A stretch of 64,000 bases of DNA from Myxococcus xanthus (GTDB taxonomy: Bacteria; Myxococcota; Myxococcia; Myxococcales; Myxococcaceae): contig NZ_FNOH01000010.1 of assembly GCF_900106535.1 (NCBI RefSeq), forward strand, positions 248,001-312,000, in the 5' to 3' direction. Of the stretch, positions 45,746 to 64,000 are shown one piece after another (positions within the stretch are counted from its first letter, which is position 1; each line of letters begins with the position of its first letter). The notes beneath the pieces were generated by a model. It worked only from the letters and a program-made list of their open reading frames with translations. It was not told the DNA's origin and did not search any database. Position numbers and translations under genes: made by a program.

Positions 45746-48700
45746 ATGGAGTTTCCCCACGTGAGAAGGTTGGTTGCCACGCTGTCCGGGCTTGCCCTGG
45801 TACTGTCCGGTACCAGTTCCGTCGCCCGGACGCTGCCGAACTATGATGCACTCCAGGACGCGAAGCCCGCGGGCCGTGCCGCCGCGGGATTCAAGCCGGT
45901 CAACAGCAGCCTGAAGGGGGCGCGGGTCGCCCACAAGGACTCGCTGACCGGTTCCCCGACGTTCATCTGGACGCACCCGACCTCGGAGCAGACGAAGCTC
46001 CGTGGCGAGTACGCGAAGATGTCTCCCGCCAAGGCGGCGCTGGCGCAGATTTCTGCCCACGCTCCTCTCTACGGTCTCGCTTCGTTTGAGGCCGCGGGCG
46101 CGACGGTCACCAACGTCAGCACCAACACGCAGGGCGTGAAGGTCGTGACGCTGGCCCAGGAGTCCTCGGGAATCGAGGTCTTCCGCCAGTCGCTGAAGGT
46201 GCTGCTGAACAAGCACAATCAGGTGGTTGCCATCTCCGGCAGCCTCTCCAAGCACGGTTCCGCGGAGATCCCCAAGGGCAAGGCGCGCTTCACCGTGCCC
46301 GCGACCGAGGCGATCGCCGTGGCCTACAAGGACCTCACGGGCGCCGCGCTGGACCGCAACCTGCTCACCCGCGTGAGCGACGCGAAGAAGGGCGACAAGT
46401 ACTCGCACTTCACGCTGGCCAGCTACGCGCGTCCGCTCGAGGAGGGGTTTGTCATCCCCGCCCGCGCGAAGCAGGTCTACTTCCCGCTGCCTGGCAAGCT
46501 GGTCCCCGCGTACTACGTGGAGATCAACACGAGCCGCGCGAACAGCGTGGACTCGGACTACTTCGCGTACGTCATCTCCGCCACCGACGGTCAGTTGCTG
46601 ATGCGCAACAACCTGACGGCGCACGCGGAGTTCAGCTACCGCGTGTTCTCGGACACGACGCCGCCGTACACCCCGCACGACGGTCCGATCGGCAGCGGCG
46701 GTACGCCGCACCCGACCGGCAACCCGGACGGCTACCAGTCGCCGTACGTTCCGGCGAACCTGATCACCCTCGAGAGCCTCCCGTTCAGCCGGAACGATCC
46801 CTGGCTGCCGGACGGCGCGACGGAGACGCAGGGTAACAACGTCGACGCGTACGCGGACCTCGCCGATCCGGACTACTACAGCCCCGGCGACCTCCGTGCT
46901 TCCGTCACGGCCCCGGGCGTGTTCGACCGGATCATCGACTTCGGCATCCAGCCGAACGCCAACAACGAGCAGATCGCCGCGGCGACGACGAGCCTGTTCT
47001 TCCTGAACAACTGGCTCCACGACTGGTACTACGACGCCGGGTTCGACGAGGCCTCCGGCAACGCCCAGCATGACAACTTCGGGCGTGGCGGCGTGGGCGG
47101 TGACCGTCTGCATGCGCAGGCGCAGGACTACAGCGGCACCGACAACGCCAACATGCGCACGCCGGCGGACGGTGCGTCGCCGCGCATGCAGATGTACCTG
47201 TTCGCCGGGGCGCGCAACTCGCGTCTGACGGCGAACGCTCCGGCGGAGGTCGCGGGTGACTACGAGGGTGGCGTCTCCTCCACCTTCGGTCCGCAGACCT
47301 TCAACGTCACCGGCGACGTGGTCGCGGCGCTGGATGCCGCCAACACCGCCGGCCCGACGGACCGTGACGGCTGCACCGCGCTGACCAACGCGGCCGAGGT
47401 CGTTGGCAAGATCGCCATCATCGACCGCGGCACCTGCGGCTTCGTCGACAAGGTGACCAACGCGCAGAACGCGGGCGCCATCGGCGTCATCATCCACGAC
47501 AACGTCGCGGGTCCCACGATCGACCTGGGCGGCGACTCCACCACCATCACCATCCCCACGCTTCGCGTGAACCTGGATGATGGCAACGTGCTGCGCAGCG
47601 GCCTGCCGGCGCTCAACGTCACCCTGTGGCGTGGCCCGACCGCGTGGATCGACGGCACCATCGACAACGCCATCGTGGCGCACGAGTGGGGCCACTACAT
47701 CAGCAACCGCCTTGTCGCGAACTCGTCCGGTCTGGTGAACAACCAGGGCCGCTCGATGGGCGAGGGCTGGGGTGACTTCACCGCCCTGCTGATGATGGTT
47801 CGCGCCGAGGACATCAACGTCCCGTCCAACGCGAACTGGAACGGCGCCTACGCCGCCGCGGGCTACGCCACGCGCGCGGACGCGAACTCCGAGTTCTTCG
47901 GTATCCGCCGTGGCACGTACTCGTCGGACCAGACCAAGAACGCGCTGTCGTTCCGTCACATCATGGACGGCGTGGCGCTGCCCACGGGTGTGCCGTTCAA
48001 CGGCAACACGGGTCAGCCGAACTCGCAGGTTCACAACTCCGGCGAGATCTGGGCGACGATGCTGTGGGAGTGCTACACGTCGCTGCTCCGCGCGCATCCG
48101 TTCCAGGAGGCGCAGGACCGGATGAAGAGCTACCTGGTGAACGGGTACAAGCTCACGCCGGCGGCCCCCACGTACCTGGAGGCGCGTGACGCCGTCATCG
48201 CGGCGGCCTACGCCAACGACCCGGCGGACGCCGAGCGGTTCTGGACGGCCTTCGCCAAGCGCGGCGCGGGCGTCGGCGCCGTGGCTCCGGACCGCTACTC
48301 CACGAACCACGCCGGTGTCGTGGAGAGCTTCGTGGTCGGTTCGGCCATCCAGATTGTGTCGGCCGAGTTCATCGACGACGTCGAGGCTGGCTCGTGCGAC
48401 CTCGACGGCATCCTGGACAACGGTGAGACGGGCCGCATCGAGGTCACCGTGCGCAACGCGGGCGCACTGCCTGCGTCCGCCTCCAGCGTCAACCTGTCCT
48501 CCGCCTTCTCGGGTCTCGAGTTCGGCAACGGTGGTCAGGCAAGCTTCCCGGCCATCCCCGTGTTCGGTACGGCCACGGTCTCCATCCCGGTCTCGCTCAC
48601 GGGCGCGACGGGCCAGCAGGACGTGACCATCGACATCGCGGCGCGTGATGCGGGCCAGGCGATCCCCGGCGACATCACGGACAGCATCATCCTCACGACG

Positions 48701-51088
48701 CACTTCGACGAGCGTGAGAACTCCTCCAACATCGAGGACGTTCAGATCTCCCCGTCCAAGCTGCCTTGGGAAACCGAGTACGACGAGGCCCTGACCCCGG
48801 CCGCGTTCAGCGTGGTCACGTTCCCGGACGGCAACCGCACGTTCTACGCGGAGAACACCGCTTCCTACGCCGACGTTCGCCTCATCTCGCCTGAGCTGCA
48901 CGTCAGCGCGACCGAGCCCTTCGTGATCAACTTCATGCACGCTTGGGACTTCGAGGATGACTACGACGGCGCCACGGTCGAAATCTCCGAGGACGGTGGC
49001 CAGACCTGGGTGGACATCGGCGATCCGATCCACAACTCGGTTCTTGAGACCTACCCGGGCAACCTGAACCCGCTGGCTGGCAAGCCCGCGCTGTCCAGCT
49101 ACAACCCTCAGTTCCCGGGCATGCTCCCTGCGACCATCGACCTGGGCACGGCCTACGCCGGCAAGACGGTGCAGGTCCGCTTCCGGGTCGGTACGGACGA
49201 GAGCGGCGGCTACACGGGCTGGCTGCTGGACGACCTCGAGTTCAACGGCATCACGAACACTCCGTTCGCCACCATCGCGCCCGAGGATGGCGTTTGTGTG
49301 AACCCCTGGCCCATCGCCAACGCCGGTCCGGACCGGTCCATCGCGCCGGGTGAACTGGTGAGCCTCTACGGTTCGGCTGCCGATCCGGAAGGCCAGCCGG
49401 TGACCTTCACCTGGGCACAGACGTCTGGCCCTGCGGTCACCCTGGCGGGTGCCAACACCCTGAACCCGTCGTTCACGGCGCCGCAGGTTACCGAGTCCAC
49501 CGCACTGGTGTTCACGCTGACCGTCTCCGACGGCGTCAAGACGTCCACGGACTCGGTGACCGTGACGGTGGCGCTCCCCAACAATCCGCCCACCGTGAAC
49601 GCGGGCCTCGACGGCATCGTCGAGGAGCGCGCTGAGTACACGCTGAGCGGCTCCGCCAGCGATGCGGATGGCAATGCCCTCACGTACCTGTGGACCCAGG
49701 TCTCCGGTACGCCGGTGGCGGTGAAGGACTACACCACGCCGACGGCGACGTTCATCGCGCCCGAGGTCACGCTGGATGAGTCGCTGGTCTTCCGTCTGAC
49801 GGTCAGCGACGGCATCGCCACGGTGAACGACACGGTCACCGTGACGGTCACCAACGCGAACCGCGCGCCCATCGTCTCCGACACGTCCGTGGCCTTCGCC
49901 GCGGGCACTGTCACCGTGACGGCCTCCGCGGTCGACCCGGATGGTGACGCGCTCAGCTACAGCTGGGAGCAGACGGGTGGTTCGACGGTCGCCATCAATG
50001 GCGCCGACACGTCCGCCATCTCCTTCGCCACCCCGGTCCCGGGTTCGTACGAGTTCACCGTGACGGCGACGGACGGCTCGGCCTCTGCCTCCAAGGCGGT
50101 GCCGGTGACCATCATCGATGGTTCTCTGCCGGCGAACTCTGCGCCGACCGTGAACGCGGGCATCGATGCCACGGCGAACGCTGGTGACGTCGTGACGCTC
50201 AGCGGCTCCGCGAGCGACGCCGAGGGTGACACGCTGACGTACCACTGGGAGCAGATCGGTGGCACGGATGTGACCCTGACGGGCGCCGACACCCTGACGC
50301 CGTCGTTCACCGCGCCGAGCACGGCCAGCGGTACCACGCTCGGCTTCATCCTGACGGTCAGCGATGGCACCTCGACCACCAGCGATGCCGTGCGCGTCAT
50401 CGTGGCGGCGGACCCGGGTGCCAACCCGAGCAACACTGCTCCGGAAGCGGACGCGGGCGAGTCGGCCATCGTGGCGGAGGGCGCCACTGTGACGCTCAAC
50501 GGCACGGCGACCGACGCTGACGGTGACACGCTCGTCATCGTCTGGACGCAGATCGGCGGCACGCCCGTGACGCTGTCTGACGCGTCCTCGCTGACGCCGA
50601 CGTTCACCGCCCCGGCCTCCTCCGATCCGCTGACCTTCCTCCTGATGGTCAGCGACGGTACGGCGACTGTCGTCGACGTGACGTCCATCAGCGTGACCGA
50701 GGAGAACGTCGCGCCGGTGGCGTCCGCTCGCGCGGTGCTCTCTGGCAACCAGACGTCGGCCACGCTCGACGGCTCGGCTTCCAGCGACGCGAACGGCGAT
50801 GTGCTGACGTACCGCTGGACGCAGGTCTCCGGCCCGAACGCGACCATCTCCGGCGCGGACCAGGCGGTTGCGGTCGTCAACCTGCCTGACCTCGACGACA
50901 AGACGGCGTCGTTCTCGTTCCGCCTGACGGTGAAGGACTCCGCGGGCACCGAGAGCAGCACCACCGTGCAGTTCTCCGCCCGCAACGGCGGTGACAGCGG
51001 TGGCTGCTCCGCGACGGGCGCGGGCGCTCCGGTCGGCATGATCGGCCTGGCGCTGCTCGGCCTGCTGCGCCGCCGTCGTCTGAACTGA
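45746..51088 (+). CDS. Secreted M36 (fungalysin) metalloprotease with PA insert, PKD-like repeats and MYXO-CTERM
   Basis: 1780 residues. Signal peptide 1-28, FTP/PepSY-type propeptide to about 330, then the zinc protease with H-E-W-G-H at 646-650 and third ligand in MGEGWGD near 673. A protease-associated (PA) segment (GKIAIIDRGTCGFVDKVTNA) is inserted near 540-600. Residues about 1190-1745 hold six PKD/Ig-like repeats (NAGPD/NAGLD, then SGSASDADGD, then FTLTVSDG). It ends with a Cys, a hydrophobic helix (MIGLALLGLL) and RRRR, the MYXO-CTERM sorting tail. It may be the M. xanthus predation-linked protease MepA, but I name it only from memory. Confidence 0.93.
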   Translation: MEFPHVRRLVATLSGLALVLSGTSSVARTLPNYDALQDAKPAGRAAAGFKPVNSSLKGARVAHKDSLTGSPTFIWTHPTSEQTKLRGEYAKMSPAKAALAQISAHAPLYGLASFEAAGATVTNVSTNTQGVKVVTLAQESSGIEVFRQSLKVLLNKHNQVVAISGSLSKHGSAEIPKGKARFTVPATEAIAVAYKDLTGAALDRNLLTRVSDAKKGDKYSHFTLASYARPLEEGFVIPARAKQVYFPLPGKLVPAYYVEINTSRANSVDSDYFAYVISATDGQLLMRNNLTAHAEFSYRVFSDTTPPYTPHDGPIGSGGTPHPTGNPDGYQSPYVPANLITLESLPFSRNDPWLPDGATETQGNNVDAYADLADPDYYSPGDLRASVTAPGVFDRIIDFGIQPNANNEQIAAATTSLFFLNNWLHDWYYDAGFDEASGNAQHDNFGRGGVGGDRLHAQAQDYSGTDNANMRTPADGASPRMQMYLFAGARNSRLTANAPAEVAGDYEGGVSSTFGPQTFNVTGDVVAALDAANTAGPTDRDGCTALTNAAEVVGKIAIIDRGTCGFVDKVTNAQNAGAIGVIIHDNVAGPTIDLGGDSTTITIPTLRVNLDDGNVLRSGLPALNVTLWRGPTAWIDGTIDNAIVAHEWGHYISNRLVANSSGLVNNQGRSMGEGWGDFTALLMMVRAEDINVPSNANWNGAYAAAGYATRADANSEFFGIRRGTYSSDQTKNALSFRHIMDGVALPTGVPFNGNTGQPNSQVHNSGEIWATMLWECYTSLLRAHPFQEAQDRMKSYLVNGYKLTPAAPTYLEARDAVIAAAYANDPADAERFWTAFAKRGAGVGAVAPDRYSTNHAGVVESFVVGSAIQIVSAEFIDDVEAGSCDLDGILDNGETGRIEVTVRNAGALPASASSVNLSSAFSGLEFGNGGQASFPAIPVFGTATVSIPVSLTGATGQQDVTIDIAARDAGQAIPGDITDSIILTTHFDERENSSNIEDVQISPSKLPWETEYDEALTPAAFSVVTFPDGNRTFYAENTASYADVRLISPELHVSATEPFVINFMHAWDFEDDYDGATVEISEDGGQTWVDIGDPIHNSVLETYPGNLNPLAGKPALSSYNPQFPGMLPATIDLGTAYAGKTVQVRFRVGTDESGGYTGWLLDDLEFNGITNTPFATIAPEDGVCVNPWPIANAGPDRSIAPGELVSLYGSAADPEGQPVTFTWAQTSGPAVTLAGANTLNPSFTAPQVTESTALVFTLTVSDGVKTSTDSVTVTVALPNNPPTVNAGLDGIVEERAEYTLSGSASDADGNALTYLWTQVSGTPVAVKDYTTPTATFIAPEVTLDESLVFRLTVSDGIATVNDTVTVTVTNANRAPIVSDTSVAFAAGTVTVTASAVDPDGDALSYSWEQTGGSTVAINGADTSAISFATPVPGSYEFTVTATDGSASASKAVPVTIIDGSLPANSAPTVNAGIDATANAGDVVTLSGSASDAEGDTLTYHWEQIGGTDVTLTGADTLTPSFTAPSTASGTTLGFILTVSDGTSTTSDAVRVIVAADPGANPSNTAPEADAGESAIVAEGATVTLNGTATDADGDTLVIVWTQIGGTPVTLSDASSLTPTFTAPASSDPLTFLLMVSDGTATVVDVTSISVTEENVAPVASARAVLSGNQTSATLDGSASSDANGDVLTYRWTQVSGPNATISGADQAVAVVNLPDLDDKTASFSFRLTVKDSAGTESSTTVQFSARNGGDSGGCSATGAGAPVGMIGLALLGLLRRRRLN
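49318..50990 (+). repeat. Six PKD/Ig-like repeats encoded in the protease gene
   Basis: Repeats of about 80-95 codons begin near 49318, 49585, 49861, 50140, 50440 and 50710. Each runs through a D-A-D/E-G-D turn and a W-x-Q core to a TVSDG strand. They are divergent at DNA level, so they are old duplications rather than a recent expansion. Confidence 0.8.
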
Positions 51089-51259: not shown

Positions 51260-52318
51260 TCAGAGGGGCCGCACGTGCTCCGCGAGGCGTCCGGTGGCCA
51301 TCAGCTCGTGCAACGCGTCGCCCATGCGCTCGCTCTCGGAGACCACCTGGTTCCAGGCGCGCATGCGCTCGGCGTCCTTCATCCGTTCGAAGTCGACCCG
51401 GTCTGGGATCCGGCCGCCAGGAAGGCGGGCCACCAGCTCCGGAGACGGGGCGATGAGCAGCGCCCTGCGGAAGTTCTGGGGCCGTGCCCGCCGCCACCGC
51501 AGCGACTTGTCGAACCAGCCCGGCACCACGTACGGGTAGAAGTGCGGGTACAGCACCAGGCCCGTGCCTGGGCCGAAGTCCAGGTCCAGGTGGTAGTCGA
51601 CCACGCCGCCGTCGCGAAACACGCCCGCGGGCGCGCCGGGAATACGCACGCCACTGAAGAGCAGGGGGATGGAGCCTGACGCCAGCAGCGCCAGCCGCAG
51701 GTTCTCCCGCGTCAGTGGCAGGTGGGTGGAGGGCAGGTCGTTGAGCCCGGTGAAGGGGCTGGTGTCCCCGGCCGTGTGGAAGATGACGCGCTCCATGTGG
51801 AGCCCCAGCGTCCGTCGGCTGACCAGGTTGCCCAGGGCGCAGAGCACGAGCCCGAAGAGCTGCGCCCCCGGGCCTTCCATTCCCACCGCCCCCCGGCACA
51901 GCGCGGTGACGACATGCAGCCGTGCCCAGGGGTGGTCCAGAATCTCCGCTTCACCATCCTCGCCCAGCAGCGCATCCAGGATGCGCTCGCAGGTCTCGCT
52001 CACCTGGGTGGGCGTGGGCTTGGGCGGATAGCGTTGGTCGATGTACGCCGCCTCGAAGCGGCGCAAGGCCAGCACCGGGTCCTTCTGGGCCATGCAGGCG
52101 AGCCGCCAGCTTCCAATGGAACTGCCGATGAGGTGGAGGGGGCGCGAGCGGTTCTGGAAGAGGCCGGCGAAGAGCGCCCGGTCCAGTCCCGCCAGCACCA
52201 GCCACTTCGGACCGCCGGAGGCGCCGGGGACGACGTCCACGTCGTCCCCGCGCAAGCCTCGTTCGCGAATGAGCCGGAGCGCGTCCGGCCCGGCCAGGAG
52301 CGTGAGGTGGGAGGCCAT
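51260..52318 (-). CDS. Patatin-like phospholipase
   Basis: 352 residues. The Ser-Asp dyad is visible: nucleophile in IGSSIGSW (G-x-S-x-G, near residue 67) and Asp in RDGGVVDYHL near 230. GASGGPKW near 33 is the oxyanion loop. No signal peptide, so it probably acts on lipids from the cytoplasmic side or is exported by other means. Substrate unknown. Divergent from the amidase, 78 bases apart. Confidence 0.85.
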   Translation of the reverse strand: MASHLTLLAGPDALRLIRERGLRGDDVDVVPGASGGPKWLVLAGLDRALFAGLFQNRSRPLHLIGSSIGSWRLACMAQKDPVLALRRFEAAYIDQRYPPKPTPTQVSETCERILDALLGEDGEAEILDHPWARLHVVTALCRGAVGMEGPGAQLFGLVLCALGNLVSRRTLGLHMERVIFHTAGDTSPFTGLNDLPSTHLPLTRENLRLALLASGSIPLLFSGVRIPGAPAGVFRDGGVVDYHLDLDFGPGTGLVLYPHFYPYVVPGWFDKSLRWRRARPQNFRRALLIAPSPELVARLPGGRIPDRVDFERMKDAERMRAWNQVVSESERMGDALHELMATGRLAEHVRPL

Positions 52319-54481: not shown

Positions 54482-55207
54482 CTATTCCAACGTGCCAACG
54501 GAGCTGCCACCGGGCTGCTCGCGCTGGTGGTCGAGATACGCGGCGAAGCCTGCCTTGGATTGGATGCGGAAGGCGGGGATTCGGGCGAGCGCCTCGGGCG
54601 GGAAGACGTATTGCTCACACACGAGGCTGGCGCGGGTCGCGCCTTCCTGGCTGCCAGTGAAGGGCCGCACCTCGTGTTGGAGGTCGCCGCGGAAGTGCAC
54701 CAGCAGGCCCTCGCGTGGGCGGATTTCACCCACGGGGGTGTCATTCTGGAGAAGGCGCAGCTCACCACCCTGGGCGCGCTCGGGGACCTGGAGATACAGC
54801 ACGCTCACGTGCCGGGGCGTCGCGTCGGGGACGCCGCTGGGCTCCTGCAGTGTCGCGTCGATGTGTCGCCCCACGCCGCGCCCCGCATCGAGCAACAAGA
54901 GGTTGAGATAGAATGCATTGGGGGCGGGCCGCTCCCGCCGCGAACCCCAGAGCCGCTCATGCCAAGGCAACAATCCTGTCGCATGGAGCGGGTCCAGCAC
55001 GTGGGCCAGGTAGGGCACCAGGAAGGGGAAGCGGGCCTCCAACGTGGCGCGGCCCTCGTGCGTGAAGATGAAGGCAAACCCCCGGCTGGCCTGGAACGTC
55101 CCCATCAACGGACTGCGTGCCACGAAGCGCGAGCCGAGCAGGGCGGTCCGCAGTTCGTGAAGCGCGCTGCGGGGCAAGGCCTCTCGGCGGGTGATGTAAG
55201 CACGCAC
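54482..55207 (-). CDS. 2OG-Fe(II) oxygenase-like protein
   Basis: 241 residues with the double-stranded beta-helix of prolyl-4-hydroxylase-like enzymes: H-x-D in GRHIDATL near 115, the second His in LQHEVRPF near 180 and the Arg of TRASLVCEQYVF about ten residues later, which would bind 2-oxoglutarate. RHVSVLYLQVPERAQGGELRLL is the typical central strand. Target unknown. Probably co-transcribed with the DUF1330 gene (26-base gap). Confidence 0.8.
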   Translation of the reverse strand: MRAYITRREALPRSALHELRTALLGSRFVARSPLMGTFQASRGFAFIFTHEGRATLEARFPFLVPYLAHVLDPLHATGLLPWHERLWGSRRERPAPNAFYLNLLLLDAGRGVGRHIDATLQEPSGVPDATPRHVSVLYLQVPERAQGGELRLLQNDTPVGEIRPREGLLVHFRGDLQHEVRPFTGSQEGATRASLVCEQYVFPPEALARIPAFRIQSKAGFAAYLDHQREQPGGSSVGTLE

Positions 55208-56947: not shown

Positions 56948-57823
56948 ATGAGCGCCTTCCTCGACACCATTCTGGCCTTCCCGACCGCCATCTTCACCAT
57001 CGTCCTCGGCGTGGTGATGACGTACTGGCTGTTCGTCATCGCGGGCGCGGTCGGCATCGACCTGTTCGATGGGGACATCACGCTGGAGTCGGGCGGCAAG
57101 GCGCTGAGCGGGGCCATCGAGGGCGGCGGCAAGGCGCTGGGCGGGGCCATCGAGGGCGGTGGCAAGGCATTGGGCGGGGCCATCGAGGGCGGTGGCAAGG
57201 CATTGAGCGGGGCCATCGAGGGTGGTGGCAAGGCATTGGGCGGCGCGAAGGCGCTGGGCGCCCATGACGCGGATTTCGACGTCGACGGTGGCGGAGTCCT
57301 GGCGGCCATGGGCTTCGCGGGCATCCCCATCACCGTGTCCGTGAGCTTCGTGGCGTTCATCGCCTGGCTCCTGTCGGTGGTGAGCGCGCAGCCGCTGCAC
57401 GAGGCGCTGGGCGGGATGATGCCGTCGTGGCTGTTGAGCAGCGGGCTGGGGCTGGCGTGCTTCGCGGCGGGGACGGTGACGGCGGGCTTCGCGGTCCGAC
57501 CCCTGCGGCCGGTGTTCGTGACCAGGCGCGCCCCGGGGCGCGACGCGCTGATGGGCCGCGTGTGCACCATCTCCAGCGGCAGCGTGACGGCCAAGACGGG
57601 CCACGCCACCTTCGAGGACGGCGGCGCGGGCGTCATCCTCAACGTCGTCTGCGCGAAGCCCAATGAACTCAAGCGAGGGCAGCCGGCGCTGATCCTCGCC
57701 TACGACGCCGAGCGGCGCGTCTACGAAGTGGAGCCGGTCGACTGGCTGCTGCCGGAGGAGATGGAGCAGCTCCAGGATCCGGCCCGCGCCGCGGCATTGG
57801 CTCGCGTGAAGGCACGAGGCTGA
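56948..57823 (+). CDS. YqiJ-like membrane protein with OB-fold and Gly-rich tandem repeat
   Basis: 291 residues. An N-terminal membrane segment (TAIFTIVLGVVMTYWLFVIAGAVG), a repeat (residues 48-100) of the 11-residue unit GGGKAL(G/S)GAIE, then two or three membrane segments and a C-terminal OB-like domain (GRDALMGRVCTISSGSVTAKTGHATF...) as in NfeD/YqiJ proteins. ATG at 56948 has GGGGAG upstream. NfeD/YqiJ proteins are partners of flotillins, and the next gene is one, 108 bases on. The repeat is absent from family members I know. Confidence 0.78.
   Translation: MSAFLDTILAFPTAIFTIVLGVVMTYWLFVIAGAVGIDLFDGDITLESGGKALSGAIEGGGKALGGAIEGGGKALGGAIEGGGKALSGAIEGGGKALGGAKALGAHDADFDVDGGGVLAAMGFAGIPITVSVSFVAFIAWLLSVVSAQPLHEALGGMMPSWLLSSGLGLACFAAGTVTAGFAVRPLRPVFVTRRAPGRDALMGRVCTISSGSVTAKTGHATFEDGGAGVILNVVCAKPNELKRGQPALILAYDAERRVYEVEPVDWLLPEEMEQLQDPARAAALARVKARG
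57089..57247 (+). repeat. 33-bp tandem repeat encoding GGGKAL(G/S)GAIE
   Basis: Four full units (57089-57121, 57122-57154, 57155-57187, 57188-57220) and a partial fifth. Units 2-5 are almost identical at DNA level, so this is a recent, potentially length-variable expansion in frame. Confidence 0.9.
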
Positions 57824-57931
57824 GTCTTACCGGTCGCGCCGAGGGGGCGACCGTCACATTCGACGCCGGAGGGCTTTTGCGGGGGATCTCCGGCGCCTGA
57901 TACAAGGCCCGCTGTCATCATCAATCAGGAA

Positions 57932-60100
57932 ATGGCCATGGACCCCATTACCGCGGTCGCTGCCGGCATCGGTGGCATCATCCTTCTCGGAGGCATCCTC
58001 CTCACCATCGTCCGGCTCTACCGGCAGGTGGACCAGGGCAAGGTGCTCATCGTCAACACGCTGAAGAACGAGCCGGTCGTCACCTTCACCGGCGCGGTGG
58101 TGTTCCCCATCATCAACCGGGCCGAGGTGATGGACATCTCCTTGAAGACGGTGGAAATCGACCGCCGTGGCAAGGAAGGCCTCATCTGCCGGGACAACAT
58201 CCGGGGTGACATCAAGGTCACCTTCTTCGTCCGCGTGAACAAGACGCGCGAGGACGTGCTGAAGGTGGCGCAGACCATTGGCTGCGCGCGTGCCTCCGAC
58301 CAGGAGACGCTGGAGAACCTCTTCGAGGCCAAGTTCTCGGAGGCCCTCAAGACGGTGGGCAAGAGCTTCGACTTCGAGGAGCTCTACACCAAGCGCGAGG
58401 AGATCAAGGACCAGGTCGTCAACGTCATCGGCCGTGACCTCAGCGGGTACATGCTGGAGGACTGCGCCATCGACTTCCTGGAGCAGACCCCGGTCGAGAT
58501 GCTGGACAAGGACAACATCCTCGACGCGCAGGGCATCCGGAAGATCACCGAGCTGACGACGAAGCAGAATGTCTTCACCAACGAGCTGCGCCAGGACGAG
58601 CGCATGGCCGTCACCAAGCGCAACGTCGAGGCGGATGAGGCCATCTTCGCCCTCGAGCGTCAGCGTGAAGAGGCCGCCGCGAAGCAGAAGCGCGAGATCG
58701 ACAGCATCCAGGCCCGCGAGACGGCCGAGGCCGAGCGCGTGAAGCAGGAGGAGTACGCCAAGGCCCAGCTGGCGCGCATCAAGGCCGAGGAAGAAATCAA
58801 CATCAACGAGCAGAACAAGGCCCGGCAGATCGAGGTCGCGCAGAAGAACCGCGAGCGCGTGGTGGGCGTGGAGACCGAGCGCGTGGAGAAGGACCGCGCC
58901 CTGGAAGCCATCAACCGCGAGCGTGAGACGGAGCTGCAGCGCATCGCCAAGGAGAAGGCGCTCGAAGGCGAGAAGAAGCTCATCGCCGACGTGGTGCGGG
59001 CCCGCATCGCCGTGGAGAAGACGGTGGCGGAGGAGGAGGAGCGCATCAAGGACCTGCGCGTGAAGGCCGAGGCCACCCGCCGCAAGGACGCGCTGCTCAT
59101 CACCGCCGAGGCGCAGGCGCAGGAGAAGCTGGTCAAGGACATCAAGGCGGCCGAGGCCTCCAACGAGGTGGCCAAGTTCACCGCCAAGGAGAAGCTGACG
59201 CTGGCCGAGGCCGAGCTGGAGGCCGCTGACAAGACGGCGAAGGCGAAGGTCCGTCTGGCCGAGGGCGTCCAGGCCGAGGCCGCCGCCGAGGGCCTGGCCG
59301 AGGTCCGCGTGAAGGAGGCCGACGCGCAGGCGCAGGAGAAGCTCGGCATGGTCAACGTCCGCGTGAAGGAAGCCGAGGCGGGCGCCATCGAGAAGCAGGG
59401 CCACGCGGAGGCGAACATCGTCCGCGAGAAGCTGCTGGCGGAGGCCGCGGGTGCGCAGGAGAAGGGCCTGGCTCAGGCGCGCGTGCTGGAGGCGGAAGCC
59501 AGCGCCATCCAGAAGCGCGGCGAGGCGGAGGCCATTGCCACGCGCGAGAAGCAGCTGGCCGAGGCCGCTGCCATCCAGGAGAAGCTGCTGGCCGAGGCCC
59601 GCGGTCTGGCGGAGAAGGCCGCGTCCATGAAGCTGATGGACGGCGTCGGCCGCGAGCACGAGGAGTTCCGCCTCAAGCTCAACAAGGAGCGCGACGTGGA
59701 GCTGGAGGCCATCCGCGCGAAGAAGGACATCGCGCACGCGCAGGCCGAGGTGCTGGCCAAGGCGTTCGCCAACGCGAAGTTCAACATCGTCGGTGGCGAC
59801 GGCCAGTTCTTCGAGCGCTTCGTCAAGGCGGTGTCGTTCGGCACGGCGGTGGACGGCGCGCTGGACCACGGCGAGGCGCTGAAGACGGCGCTGGGCGGCT
59901 ACCTCAACGGCGAGAAGGACCTGCCGGCCGACCTGAAGGAGATTCTCTCCAAGCCGGGTCTGAGCAACGACGCGCAGAACCTGGCCGTGGCCGCGCTGCT
60001 GCACAAGATGGCGGCCAGCCCCGTGGCCGCGACCTCGGCCGGCCTCAAGGCGCTGGTGGAAGACGTGGCGCGGCCGGGCACGGTCGACAAGCAGGGCTGA
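57932..60100 (+). CDS. Flotillin-like protein (YqiK family)
   Basis: 722 residues. One N-terminal membrane segment (AAGIGGIILLGGILLTIVRLY, about 10-30), an SPFH/band-7 domain (about 40-230; GKVLIVNTL, FPIINRAEVMDISLKTVEI) and a coiled coil of about 380 residues very rich in Glu, Ala and Lys with short repeats such as EAEAxAIEKxGxAEA. The globular end is near 640-722. It should oligomerise at the inner membrane in lipid domains. ATG at 57935 or 57932 is possible (MAMDP). It pairs with the YqiJ-like gene upstream and the giant ATPase-like gene downstream. Confidence 0.9.
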   Translation: MAMDPITAVAAGIGGIILLGGILLTIVRLYRQVDQGKVLIVNTLKNEPVVTFTGAVVFPIINRAEVMDISLKTVEIDRRGKEGLICRDNIRGDIKVTFFVRVNKTREDVLKVAQTIGCARASDQETLENLFEAKFSEALKTVGKSFDFEELYTKREEIKDQVVNVIGRDLSGYMLEDCAIDFLEQTPVEMLDKDNILDAQGIRKITELTTKQNVFTNELRQDERMAVTKRNVEADEAIFALERQREEAAAKQKREIDSIQARETAEAERVKQEEYAKAQLARIKAEEEININEQNKARQIEVAQKNRERVVGVETERVEKDRALEAINRERETELQRIAKEKALEGEKKLIADVVRARIAVEKTVAEEEERIKDLRVKAEATRRKDALLITAEAQAQEKLVKDIKAAEASNEVAKFTAKEKLTLAEAELEAADKTAKAKVRLAEGVQAEAAAEGLAEVRVKEADAQAQEKLGMVNVRVKEAEAGAIEKQGHAEANIVREKLLAEAAGAQEKGLAQARVLEAEASAIQKRGEAEAIATREKQLAEAAAIQEKLLAEARGLAEKAASMKLMDGVGREHEEFRLKLNKERDVELEAIRAKKDIAHAQAEVLAKAFANAKFNIVGGDGQFFERFVKAVSFGTAVDGALDHGEALKTALGGYLNGEKDLPADLKEILSKPGLSNDAQNLAVAALLHKMAASPVAATSAGLKALVEDVARPGTVDKQG

Positions 60101-60112
60101 CAGTCCCAATGG

Positions 60113-60140
60113 GCCACCGCCGTGAACAGGCGGCGGTGGC
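60113..60140 (+). terminator. Hairpin between the flotillin and the giant ATPase-like gene
   Basis: GCCACCGCC (60113-60121) and GGCGGTGGC (60132-60140), with no T run, so probably a partial terminator or an mRNA-stability stem within one transcript. A second G/C-rich stem around 60184-60212 (CCCTCC/GGAGGG) follows. Confidence 0.45.
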
Positions 60141-60242
60141 ACGGCCGTAAGACGACCCTCACTCCGGCCTCCCCTCCGGGGTGGCGCCCCTCCGCTCGGG
60201 AGGGTGCGGGGGTGGGGGTCTTCGCATTTCCGGTGAACACTC

Positions 60243-63200
60243 ATGGCAACTGACGGTGGCAAGGGCGCGGCGCCCGCGGGCGAGGCGGCGCTGGAAGGCG
60301 GCAGCTACGAGGTCATCCGTTCGCGGCTCCTGTCGCAGGCGGATGTGCTGGGCGCGAAGGCGACGGACCTCAACGGGCGGCGCAAGGCGCTCTTCGGTGG
60401 GACCGAGCTGACGGTCATCGGCAACGAGCGGGTGCGCACCGAGAACAACTGCGTCCCGTGCGATATCGCCAGCGTCGGCAAGTACCTGCTCTTCGGCTAC
60501 AACGTCTTCATCGGCCTGAAGCGGGAGACGTCGGTGTCCGACGTGTTCTCCCTGCACAAGTTCGAGAAGACGGCCGACGGGTACGACTTCTCCGCGGCGC
60601 CCACCTCCGAGGCCGGCGGGTTCCTGGCGGACCCGCGCTTCGTGAAGGACTTCGGCGAGCTCTACAAGTACTACAAGGACGCGAAGCTCCTTCAGATTCG
60701 CAAGCTGGACTCGCGCCTGCTGGCCGTCTTCCAGACGGGCCAGTCGCTGCGCGACATCAAGGTCTTCCGCTTCAGCCTGGACCTGGAGGGCCGCGCCACC
60801 TACCTGGACAACCAGGGCGAGCGCGACCACGTCTTCCCGCCGTCGCACGACTTCGAGTGGACGGTGGCCACGCGGGACAACTACGTCACCGGCCAGCACC
60901 CGCACGTCAACGTGCTGGACCAGGTGTTCGTGGAGACGGTGAAGGGCGACCTCACCATCAAGGTGGAGGACAACACCTCCACCGGCATGGGTATCTACAG
61001 CGAGCCCGTGGACGACCCGGACCAGTCGCTGGACGATGCCGAGTTCGCCTGGGCCCAGGTGGGCACGCTCATCCTGCTGCGGGTGCTGCCGTTCCGGGAG
61101 AAGACGCACCGCTACCTCGTCTTCAACTCGCGCACGCAGCACGTGGTGCGCATCGATGCCATGGGGCAGGCGTGCGTGCGGCTGCCGGAGGACCAGGGCA
61201 TCGTCTTCCCGGGCGGCTATTACCTCCAGACAGGGGACTTCAAGGTCTTCGACGGCGCCGCGGCGTCGGAAGGCATGGAGTTCAAGCGCGCCATCCGCTC
61301 GCCCAACGGCGAGGACGTGCTCTACATCTTCCACCGGCGGACGGACGGCTGCTACGTCCTCTTCCCGTACAACCTGGTGCGCAAGGAGGTGCAGAACCCC
61401 CTGGTCGCGCACGGCATGAGCCTGTTCTCCGACGGGCAGCTCGTCATCTTCCGCTCCGCGTCGGATGAGCCCACGCGCGTCCACCCGATGCAGGTGTGGC
61501 AGACCCCGTTCGTATCCGCCGAGCACGCGGCGGGGACGCCGCCGGCCCCGGGCTACCTGGGCAAGGTGGGCAACGCGGAGCTGGTGCGCGGCATCTCCGA
61601 CGCGCTGACGATTCAGCGGATCGCGAAGTCGGAGAAGCCCACCCGGCGCACGTATGAGGACCTGGTGTCCTCGGCCACCCGCGCGCTGGACGCGTACTAC
61701 TGGCTGGGCCATGAGGAGACGGGCCTCCAGGAACCGGTGGAGACCCTGCGGCGCACCGCCGAGCTCATCATTGATGAGTTCGAGAAGGTGGTCGCGATGC
61801 AGAAGCGCGCCACCGAGTCGCTGGCGGCCGCGGAGGTGGAGCAGGAGACGCTGCTGCTGCGTGTCCAGCCGGAGAACCTCACGCACGCGGAAGCCTTCAT
61901 GCAGGCGCTGGCGGACCTGCGCAAGCAGCGCGGGCACCTGATTACGTTGAAGGACATCCGCTACATGGACCTGGGACGCGTGGACGTCCTGGAGACCGCG
62001 GTGGTGGAGGCGTCCGACCGGGTCAGCACGGCCTGCGTGGAGTTCCTCCAGACGGGCGAGGCGCTGGCGCCGCTGGCCTCGCGCCTGGACGAGCTGCTGG
62101 CACAACTGGAGCCGGTGCAGACGTCCGTGGAGCTGGCGCCCCTGGGCGAGGACGTGGAGCGGACGGCCCACGGCCTGGAGGTCCTGGGCGAGGTCGTTGG
62201 CGGTCTCCAGGTCGGTGACCCGCTGGCCCGTGCGCGAATCCTGGAGGGCATCTCCGAGCTGTTCAGCCGCCTCAACCGCGTGCGCGCCAGCCTCGCGGCC
62301 AAGCGCAAGGAGCTGTCCGGCCGGGAGAAGCGCGCGGAGTTCGGCGCGCAGTTCAAGCTGCTGGGGCAGAGCATCGAAAGCTCGCTGTCGCAGGCGGACA
62401 GCCCGGAGCGCTGCGACGAGGCGATGTCCCGCCTCACCGTGCAGTTGGAGGAGCTGGAGGGCCGCTTCGGCGAGTTCGACGAGTTCCTGGAGCAGATCAC
62501 CCAGAAGCGCGAGGAGCTGCTGGAGGCCTTTGGCGCGCGCAAGCAGTCACTGTTGGACGAGCGGCAGCGCCGCGCGCAGAGCCTCTTCGGGGCCGCGGAG
62601 CGCATCCTCCAGGGCGTGCAGCGCCGGGCCAAGTCCTTCAAGACGGACGACGAGCTCAACGGCTACTACGCCTCCGACGCGATGATCCTCAAGCTGCGCC
62701 AGCTGGCCGACCAGCTGATGGAGCTTCAGGACAGCGTCCGCGCGGACGAGGTGATGTCGCGCGTGAAGTCCGCCAAGCAGGACGCGCTGCGCGCCCTACG
62801 GGACCGGCAGGACCTGTTCGCGGATGGCGACAACGTCATCAAGCTGGGGACGTACCGCTTCAACGTCAACACGCAGCCGCTGGACCTGACGCTGCTTCCG
62901 CGCGACGGTGAGCTGTACCTCCAGCTCACCGGCACGGACTACGCGCAGAAGGTGGATGATGCGGAGTTGCTGAAGTACCGCGACCTCTGGGAGCAGCACC
63001 TGGTCTCCGAGTCACCGGCTGTCTACCGCGCCGAGTACCTCGCGGGCTGCCTCTTGGCGGACGCGGAGGATGGCAAGCGTGGCCAGTCGCTGGATGCGCT
63101 GCACGAGGCGCTCATCAGCGGCACGCTGCTGGAGAAGGTGCGCGCGTACGCGGCCGACCGCTTCGACGAGGGCTACGAGCGCGGCGTCCATGACGCGGAC

Positions 63201-64000
63201 GCGGTCTCCATCCTGGAGAAGTTGCTGGGCCTGCACCAGGGCGCCGGCCTGTTGCGCTTCGCGCCGGTGCCGCGCGCCTGGGCGGCGCTGTACTGGGCCT
63301 TCGACGCGGACGAGGCGGCCCGCACCGTGTTCCAGCGGCGCGCGCGCAGCCTGGCGCGGCTGCGCACCACCTTCGCGTCCGGCGGCAGCATGGCCGAGGT
63401 GGGTGAGGCACTGGGCGAGCGCATCGCTACGTTCCTCACTGCGAACGGCCTGGCGCACTCACCGGCCGAGCCGCGGCAGGCGGGCCGTTACCTCGTCGAG
63501 GAGCTGGGCGCGGAGCGTCCGCGCTTCACCACCAGCGGCGAGGCGGTGGCGCTGCGGGACGCGTTCCTGCATGAGCTCGACCGGCACGGGACGCGGTCCG
63601 CGTTCGAGGACGACCTGCGCGGCCTGGAGAAGGACCTGGGCGCCCGGCTGGATCTCGCCCGGGTGTGGCTGGACGGCTACCTCGCGCAGCGCGAGGGGGG
63701 TCCGGGGGATTCCGTCCATGTGGCGCTGGAGACGGCGGTGCTGCTGCTCACCGGCTCCAAGCTGGACCGCGAGACGGCGGGCGCGCTGACGGCCACCGAG
63801 GTCTCCGCGCTGCTGGGCAATCATTCGCGCATCCAGGACCGGAAGCTGCCGCTGCGCCTGGACGAGTTCCTGGCGCGCCTGGGCGAGTTCCGGCAGGTGC
63901 GGGTGCCCCAGTACCAGGCGTACCGTGCGCTGCTGAGGGACTTGCTGGAGCGCGAGCGCCGCAAGCTGCGCCTGGAGGAGCTGACGCCGAAGGTGCTGTC
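60243..64000 (+). CDS. Giant DNA-repair-ATPase-like protein, N-terminal 1252 codons (runs off the window)
   Basis: The frame from ATG 60243 is open to the last base. It starts MATDGGKGAAPAGEAALEGG and continues SYEVIRSRLLSQADVLGAKATDLNGRRKALFG. Residues about 30-460 look like a beta-rich (propeller-like) domain with YLLFGYNVFIGLKRET, YLDNQGERDHVFPPSHDFEW and YIFHRRTDGCYVLFPYNLV. Residues 500-900 are long helices, coiled-coil-like (RASLAAKRKELSGREKRAEF). Later segments (YRAEYLAGCLLADAEDG, ERIATFLTANGLAHSP) are helical. It resembles the large bacterial proteins annotated as DNA repair ATPases, whose P-loop domain is C-terminal and so lies outside. Downstream of the flotillin by 142 bases. Confidence 0.75.
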   Translation, partial: MATDGGKGAAPAGEAALEGGSYEVIRSRLLSQADVLGAKATDLNGRRKALFGGTELTVIGNERVRTENNCVPCDIASVGKYLLFGYNVFIGLKRETSVSDVFSLHKFEKTADGYDFSAAPTSEAGGFLADPRFVKDFGELYKYYKDAKLLQIRKLDSRLLAVFQTGQSLRDIKVFRFSLDLEGRATYLDNQGERDHVFPPSHDFEWTVATRDNYVTGQHPHVNVLDQVFVETVKGDLTIKVEDNTSTGMGIYSEPVDDPDQSLDDAEFAWAQVGTLILLRVLPFREKTHRYLVFNSRTQHVVRIDAMGQACVRLPEDQGIVFPGGYYLQTGDFKVFDGAAASEGMEFKRAIRSPNGEDVLYIFHRRTDGCYVLFPYNLVRKEVQNPLVAHGMSLFSDGQLVIFRSASDEPTRVHPMQVWQTPFVSAEHAAGTPPAPGYLGKVGNAELVRGISDALTIQRIAKSEKPTRRTYEDLVSSATRALDAYYWLGHEETGLQEPVETLRRTAELIIDEFEKVVAMQKRATESLAAAEVEQETLLLRVQPENLTHAEAFMQALADLRKQRGHLITLKDIRYMDLGRVDVLETAVVEASDRVSTACVEFLQTGEALAPLASRLDELLAQLEPVQTSVELAPLGEDVERTAHGLEVLGEVVGGLQVGDPLARARILEGISELFSRLNRVRASLAAKRKELSGREKRAEFGAQFKLLGQSIESSLSQADSPERCDEAMSRLTVQLEELEGRFGEFDEFLEQITQKREELLEAFGARKQSLLDERQRRAQSLFGAAERILQGVQRRAKSFKTDDELNGYYASDAMILKLRQLADQLMELQDSVRADEVMSRVKSAKQDALRALRDRQDLFADGDNVIKLGTYRFNVNTQPLDLTLLPRDGELYLQLTGTDYAQKVDDAELLKYRDLWEQHLVSESPAVYRAEYLAGCLLADAEDGKRGQSLDALHEALISGTLLEKVRAYAADRFDEGYERGVHDADAVSILEKLLGLHQGAGLLRFAPVPRAWAALYWAFDADEAARTVFQRRARSLARLRTTFASGGSMAEVGEALGERIATFLTANGLAHSPAEPRQAGRYLVEELGAERPRFTTSGEAVALRDAFLHELDRHGTRSAFEDDLRGLEKDLGARLDLARVWLDGYLAQREGGPGDSVHVALETAVLLLTGSKLDRETAGALTATEVSALLGNHSRIQDRKLPLRLDEFLARLGEFRQVRVPQYQAYRALLRDLLERERRKLRLEELTPKVL

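Follow-up and report, generated by a model that had tools for sequence, protein, structure and literature searches.

Introduction

What bacterial flotillins do, and what supplies the energy for it, is an open question. The 64,000-nucleotide stretch of Myxococcus xanthus DNA analyzed here (the window; contig C10, 248001-312000) raises this question in a specific form: at its end, a YqiJ/NfeD-like membrane protein gene and a flotillin gene precede the gene of a giant ATPase. The initial annotation of the window recognized the three genes in a row and likened the large protein to DNA repair ATPases. It considered the link to flotillin unexplained by known function and suggested a membrane-associated stress or defence machine. 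What would such an ATPase do beside a flotillin? With an AAA+ partner that is strictly inherited along with the flotillin and keeps its catalytic residues, the matter of flotillin function and energy supply becomes directly testable. The database name "DNA repair ATPase" steers experimenters in the wrong direction.

Organization of the operon

The three open reading frames do follow one another on the + strand. They encode the YqiJ/NfeD-like membrane protein (56948..57823, 291 aa), a YqiK-type flotillin (57932..60100, 722 aa) and a giant AAA+ ATPase of the DUF3686 family (60243..64000 in the window, the frame continuing to 65810; 1855 aa). The intergenic gaps are 108 bp between the YqiJ-like and flotillin genes and 142 bp between the flotillin and ATPase genes. 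No sigma-70 promoter was found inside the operon (0.5 expected), and one terminator was found versus 3.9 expected. A sigma-54 promoter common to the loci, as reported for the bac operon, was not enriched over shuffles.

The trio represents a minimal operon, with an O-methyltransferase gene upstream and no PspA gene nearby. The combination of PspA and a CesT/Tir gene in the same operon, which characterizes the full PSP-type operon, is absent at this locus, and the sole PspA gene of the genome is located on another contig (C5). Two other genes upstream, both on the − strand, encode a patatin-like phospholipase (51260-52318) and a 2OG-Fe(II) oxygenase-like protein (54482-55207); nothing suggests that they belong to the operon. 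The window also contains, at 45746-51088, the gene of a 1780-aa secreted fungalysin-type M36 metallopeptidase, which has a PA domain and several PKD/Ig-like repeats toward its C-terminal side.

The YqiJ/NfeD-like protein and the flotillin

The YqiJ-like protein by itself has no Pfam family match, but a profile of its family finds E. coli YqiJ (E=7e-9), and two members of the family weakly match Pfam NfeD. Hydropathy indicates TM segments at aa 1-41 and aa 116-151 and a third, borderline one; the protein probably consists of three TM segments and a C-terminal OB-like domain. The profile match and the adjacency of the genes identify it with the YqiJ/YuaF-type 3TM protein of the operon described by Ravi et al., the third TM segment remaining borderline.

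A 33-bp tandem repeat (4.5 copies; 57095..57243, + strand; Tandem Repeats Finder) lies within the YqiJ-like gene. Its product, a series of 11-residue GGKALGGAIEG units, is placed between TM1 and TM2, and the number of units varies among Myxococcus species. A long Gly/Ala-rich loop is common to the Myxococcota homologues, where about 80-151 residues separate fixed motifs, compared with mostly 33-74 elsewhere. This repeat loop is a lineage-specific feature, added to the description of the family by the present analysis.

The flotillin shares 29.6% identity with E. coli YqiK over 449 aa (E=2e-33; family profile, E=3e-60) and is present as a single copy in the genome. It has one N-terminal hydrophobic TM segment, an SPFH/band-7 domain and a long Ala/Glu-rich coiled coil. 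The Pfam Band_7 score of the window protein is weak (E=0.005, below the cut-off), and the best homologue reaches 9e-11. The SPFH domain with an Ala/Glu-rich coiled coil, encoded next to an NfeD-like gene, is the combination typical of SPFH2, or prokaryotic, flotillins. Searches with the flotillin, YqiJ-like and DUF3686 profiles gave no meaningful match by sequence to solved structures.

Domain architecture and motifs of the giant ATPase

The ATPase gene is intact in the genome, with a complete ORF of 1855 aa (L004:10243-15810). Its DUF3686 domain (aa 38-486, 60354..61700, + strand; Pfam PF12458, E=3e-201) is followed by a long, largely helical region that contains a DUF7902 domain (aa 606-690, 62058..62312, + strand; Pfam PF25472, E=1e-24) and then by a C-terminal AAA+ domain. 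The latter (aa about 1258-1600; Pfam AAA, E=1.5e-7; AAA_5, E=1.5e-5) starts just past base 64000 of the window, so that the ATPase domain implied by the initial annotation is indeed encoded, beyond the window end. Hydropathy revealed no TM segment in the protein, and Pfam revealed no protease, effector, DNA-binding or nuclease domain.

The catalytic motifs are strongly conserved. The Walker A sequence SPPGYGKT is the same in 60/60 homologues, apart from a single position that follows the catalytic Lys-Thr. The Walker B DD, the sensor-1 N, an NRAD motif and a sensor-2-like QGSYR motif are invariant in all 60. This invariance indicates an active enzyme under selection. NRAD is a candidate arginine finger, and the role of GSYR is likewise suggested by position and analogy.

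Structure models of the giant ATPase

The DUF3686 domain was modeled with AlphaFold2 from the window sequence and 60 homologues (pLDDT 90.1). The model consists of repeated antiparallel strands, and its structural matches are nearly all beta-propellers, with a modest likeness (best VIA Z 9.9, rmsd about 6, to the DCAF1 WD40 domain). DUF3686 is therefore predicted to be a beta-propeller with flanking helices, which agrees with the description by Ravi et al. of a propeller in the AAA+ protein (PMC11237479).

For the AAA+ domain, a model was built from an 87%-identical Myxococcus homologue (L047, aa 1190-1660; pLDDT 84.5). The best VIA matches are CbbQ (6l1q, Z 17.5 over 253 residues, rmsd 3.8) and NorQ (Z 15.8-17.0). 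Dynein AAA domains (14.1), Clp (about 13), PAN and p97 (about 12.5) and Vps4 (12.3) score lower. By Foldseek E-value, RuvB ranks first and NorQ next, and the local sequence matches to p97/Rix7 span little beyond the P-loop. Two strands in the model, 198-203 and 206-211, precede the sensor-1 strand 217-223, as in the hairpin-bearing AAA+ clades. In the modeled structure, the AAA+ domain is thus closest to chaperone ATPases of the MoxR type (CbbQ, NorQ): it combines an AAA+ core, a pre-sensor-1 hairpin and a top structural likeness to MoxR members. At the site of the MoxR helix-2 insert (residues 138-151), the prediction shows a loop with no beta-hairpin strands. A linked VWA-domain partner, a further MoxR feature, is not conserved beside the operon. 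A convergent YfbK-like VWA gene downstream was considered as the partner and rejected, as it is present in one other Myxococcus locus and in no other tested locus.

Conservation and co-inheritance

A six-frame profile search covered 80 loci for which 5 kb or more of upstream sequence was available. The flotillin gene lies upstream of the ATPase gene in 79/80 loci, and the order and strand of the whole trio are kept in 77/80, figures that may be optimistic for distant members because the best-scoring loci were chosen. This conservation is far beyond chance. Neither observation that the initial annotation named as refuting it, a non-conserved trio or a large protein without an ATPase domain, holds. 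In a comparison of 61 relatives, the ATPase is present in 35, and 34 of these have a strong flotillin match; the exception (G031) is a fragmented assembly. None of the 26 relatives lacking the ATPase has a strong flotillin match (two weak matches fall near 1e-28 to 1e-30), and the presence pattern of the YqiJ-like gene is almost that of the flotillin. Gains and losses affect all three genes jointly.

The ATPase was found in all genomes of the genus Myxococcus (27/27) and in none of the 14 control genomes. It occurs on plasmid records from Pseudomonadota, Actinomycetota, Deinococcota and Bacteroidota, and a genome scan adds Myxococcota and Planctomycetota, giving at least six phyla. Several Myxococcota loci vary in arrangement. 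In L087, the ATPase ORF is longer (2240 aa, L087:9742-16464), and the upstream sequence retrieved contains no flotillin gene. The flotillin is found 5-7 kb upstream in L055 and L056, and in L057 it is separated from the YqiJ-like gene by other genes.

The neighbors of the trio differ among lineages. In gammaproteobacteria (most Pseudomonas-group loci), genes for YjfI (CesT/Tir-like) and PspA usually directly precede the trio, and PspA adjoins it in Hymenobacter (Bacteroidota). PspA is absent next door in the Myxococcota and Actinomycetota loci. Downstream, 19 loci have PLD-like protein genes and 10 have a rhomboid gene, and the pQBR103 locus also holds DUF350, DUF1190, DUF2491 and glutathionylspermidine-synthase-like genes. 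In some Proteobacteria, a small extra gene between the flotillin and ATPase genes encodes a Zn-ribbon (TFIIB-type) protein or an acidic protein of ~90 aa (L119:9419-9964; L082:9503-9778). A TerB-like identity was considered for such a gene in Pseudomonas and discarded, Pfam giving only weak EF-hand scores. No client gene was found conserved beside the trio across phyla.

Proposed function and alternatives

We propose that the trio is a membrane-attached protein-quality-control or remodelling operon, in which the flotillin-NfeD pair would hold damaged membrane proteins and the ATPase would remodel them during envelope stress. We favor this reading tentatively, at a little less than even confidence. 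The N-terminus of the flotillin would anchor it in the inner membrane, and its oligomers would form a cytosol-facing scaffold that, together with the YqiJ/NfeD partner, may bind and hold membrane proteins under stress, or assemblies bound to the membrane. The giant ATPase, which is soluble, would dock on this scaffold, probably with the beta-propeller at its N-terminus and the helical arm as contacts. It would assemble into a MoxR-like AAA+ ring, a hexamer, and spend ATP on remodelling, releasing or disassembling the clients held there. PspA polymers are one plausible client, because the same module lies within the PspA operon in gammaproteobacteria and Hymenobacter.

This proposal starts from what is observed directly, namely the genes, their domain architecture, the intact catalytic motifs, the strict co-inheritance and the PspA linkage in other lineages. 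The conserved order and strand of the trio, the co-occurrence of flotillin and ATPase, the invariance of the catalytic motifs, the CbbQ/NorQ match and the adjacency of PspA and YjfI all count in its favor. Three points from the literature lead the same way: FloA-NfeD of S. aureus retains unfolded proteins in an ATP-independent manner (PMC11222466), an action of the MoxR ATPase RavA on lipid microdomains has been proposed (PMC9489729), and Ravi et al. (PMC11237479) propose that the operon serves membrane-complex assembly under envelope stress and is likely a membrane-stress system. The stress machine suggested by the initial annotation agrees with this literature reading and with the gammaproteobacterial trios that adjoin PspA and YjfI. 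Counting against the proposal are the marginal effect of paFlo3 deletion (in P. aeruginosa, biofilm fell by only about 20%, and no stress or virulence phenotype was clear; PMC13086221), the lack of PspA in the window operon, the lack of a conserved VWA gene and the helix-2 hairpin not seen in the model.

The adjacency of PspA allows a narrower interpretation, an ESCRT/Vps4-like recycling in which the ATPase would disassemble a PspA-type membrane polymer, its dedicated substrate, at flotillin domains; in M. xanthus, PspA would be supplied from elsewhere in the genome. PspA and YjfI adjoin the trio in many gammaproteobacterial loci, as PspA does in Hymenobacter, the window genome has one PspA, and Ravi et al. 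liken PspA-AAA+ pairs to Snf7-Vps4 (PMC11237479). However, no PspA adjoins the trio in the Myxococcota and Actinomycetota loci, and the AAA+ model resembles Vps4 much less than CbbQ (Z 12.3 vs 17.5), which makes this interpretation rather unlikely. The CbbQ/NorQ likeness itself suggests another possibility, since these nearest folds are single-client activases. The ATPase might be an assembly or cofactor-insertion chaperone dedicated to one membrane complex, as in NorQ-NorD and CbbQ-CbbO, with the flotillin acting only as a locator. Against this, the neighbors differ across phyla, no conserved client gene was found among them and a VWA adaptor is missing; we regard this reading as somewhat less probable still.

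The defence role offered by the initial annotation gained no support. An anti-phage or other conflict system on a membrane scaffold would fit the layout of a giant NTPase beside a membrane protein, which is known there too, and some copies of the ATPase are plasmid-borne. The PADLOC matches, to IetA and LmuB, are weak (E about 4e-4 to 6e-4) and limited to the P-loop and the helical region, with no confident match. Universal presence in the genus, the lack of phage homologues and the failure to find an effector domain argue against such a system and leave it very improbable. A DNA repair or chromosome-maintenance role appears more improbable yet. It is suggested only by the Pfam name of DUF3686 ("ATPase involved in DNA repair") and the NCBI name, together with RuvB among the Foldseek matches to the AAA+ core, but re-alignment puts MoxR-type folds first, no DNA-binding or nuclease domain was found with Pfam, and the gene is coupled to membrane-scaffold genes at nearly every locus. 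DNA repair is a database label here, and the likeness named in the initial annotation gains no support, the AAA+ domain being closest, in the model, to MoxR-type chaperones.

Comparison with known systems

The operon itself is already known, and the Myxococcus member is new here. Ravi et al. (mSystems 2024, PMC11237479) describe an operon of Band-7/flotillin, YqiJ/YuaF and AAA+ (coiled coil, beta-propeller) genes and report that abbreviated operons without PspA are widespread. The window trio has the same three gene types, its ATPase being AAA+ by Pfam with a propeller predicted by AlphaFold2 and fold search. It corresponds to the abbreviated form, differing in the lack of the PspA/CesT-Tir dyad. 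The initial annotation called the link unexplained, which is fair for the mechanism; the flotillin-ATPase association itself is published. Set against the main text of that paper, the MoxR-type assignment and the co-loss counts come from the present analysis. Literature searches returned no mention of DUF3686, no experiments on the ATPase and nothing relevant on a MoxR-flotillin link.

The P. aeruginosa operon bacABCDEF (PA14_16140-16200; PMC2587700, PMC10948618) is co-transcribed, as determined by RT-PCR. It is similar in encoding YjfI (BacA), PspA (BacB), the NfeD-like BacC and, as BacD, the SPFH protein paFlo3; bacE and bacF come next. PA3728, adjoining PA3729, is listed as an ATPase. In contrast, the biofilm and virulence phenotypes belong to bacA and bacB mutants, and both genes are absent from the window operon. 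E. coli yqiJ-yqiK has the NfeD-like and flotillin pair in the same order but no DUF3686 ATPase beside it.

MoxR ATPases (RavA-ViaA, NorQ-NorD, CbbQ-CbbO) are the best structural match to the AAA+ model, with strands placed like the pre-sensor-1 hairpin. A GSPR motif is characteristic of MoxR proteins, and the GSYR motif of the window ATPase resembles it. A VWA-domain protein is the usual working partner of MoxR ATPases, whereas the window operon has no conserved VWA partner gene. The model also differs in lacking the helix-2 insert hairpin, and the AAA+ domain is fused to a large propeller and a helical arm.

In HflK/C-FtsH, too, an SPFH scaffold and an AAA+ machine are coupled at the inner membrane. 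FtsH is a membrane-anchored protease, in contrast to the window ATPase, which has no TM segment and no detected protease domain. Going beyond the operon-level proposal, it is conceivable, though doubtful at present, that a MoxR-type AAA+ motor docks on the flotillin, which would also hold the substrates of the motor. The result would be an ATP-driven "raft chaperone", not a protease, distributed over at least six phyla, and it would constitute a third kind of SPFH-AAA+ machine beside HflKC-FtsH and prohibitin-m-AAA.
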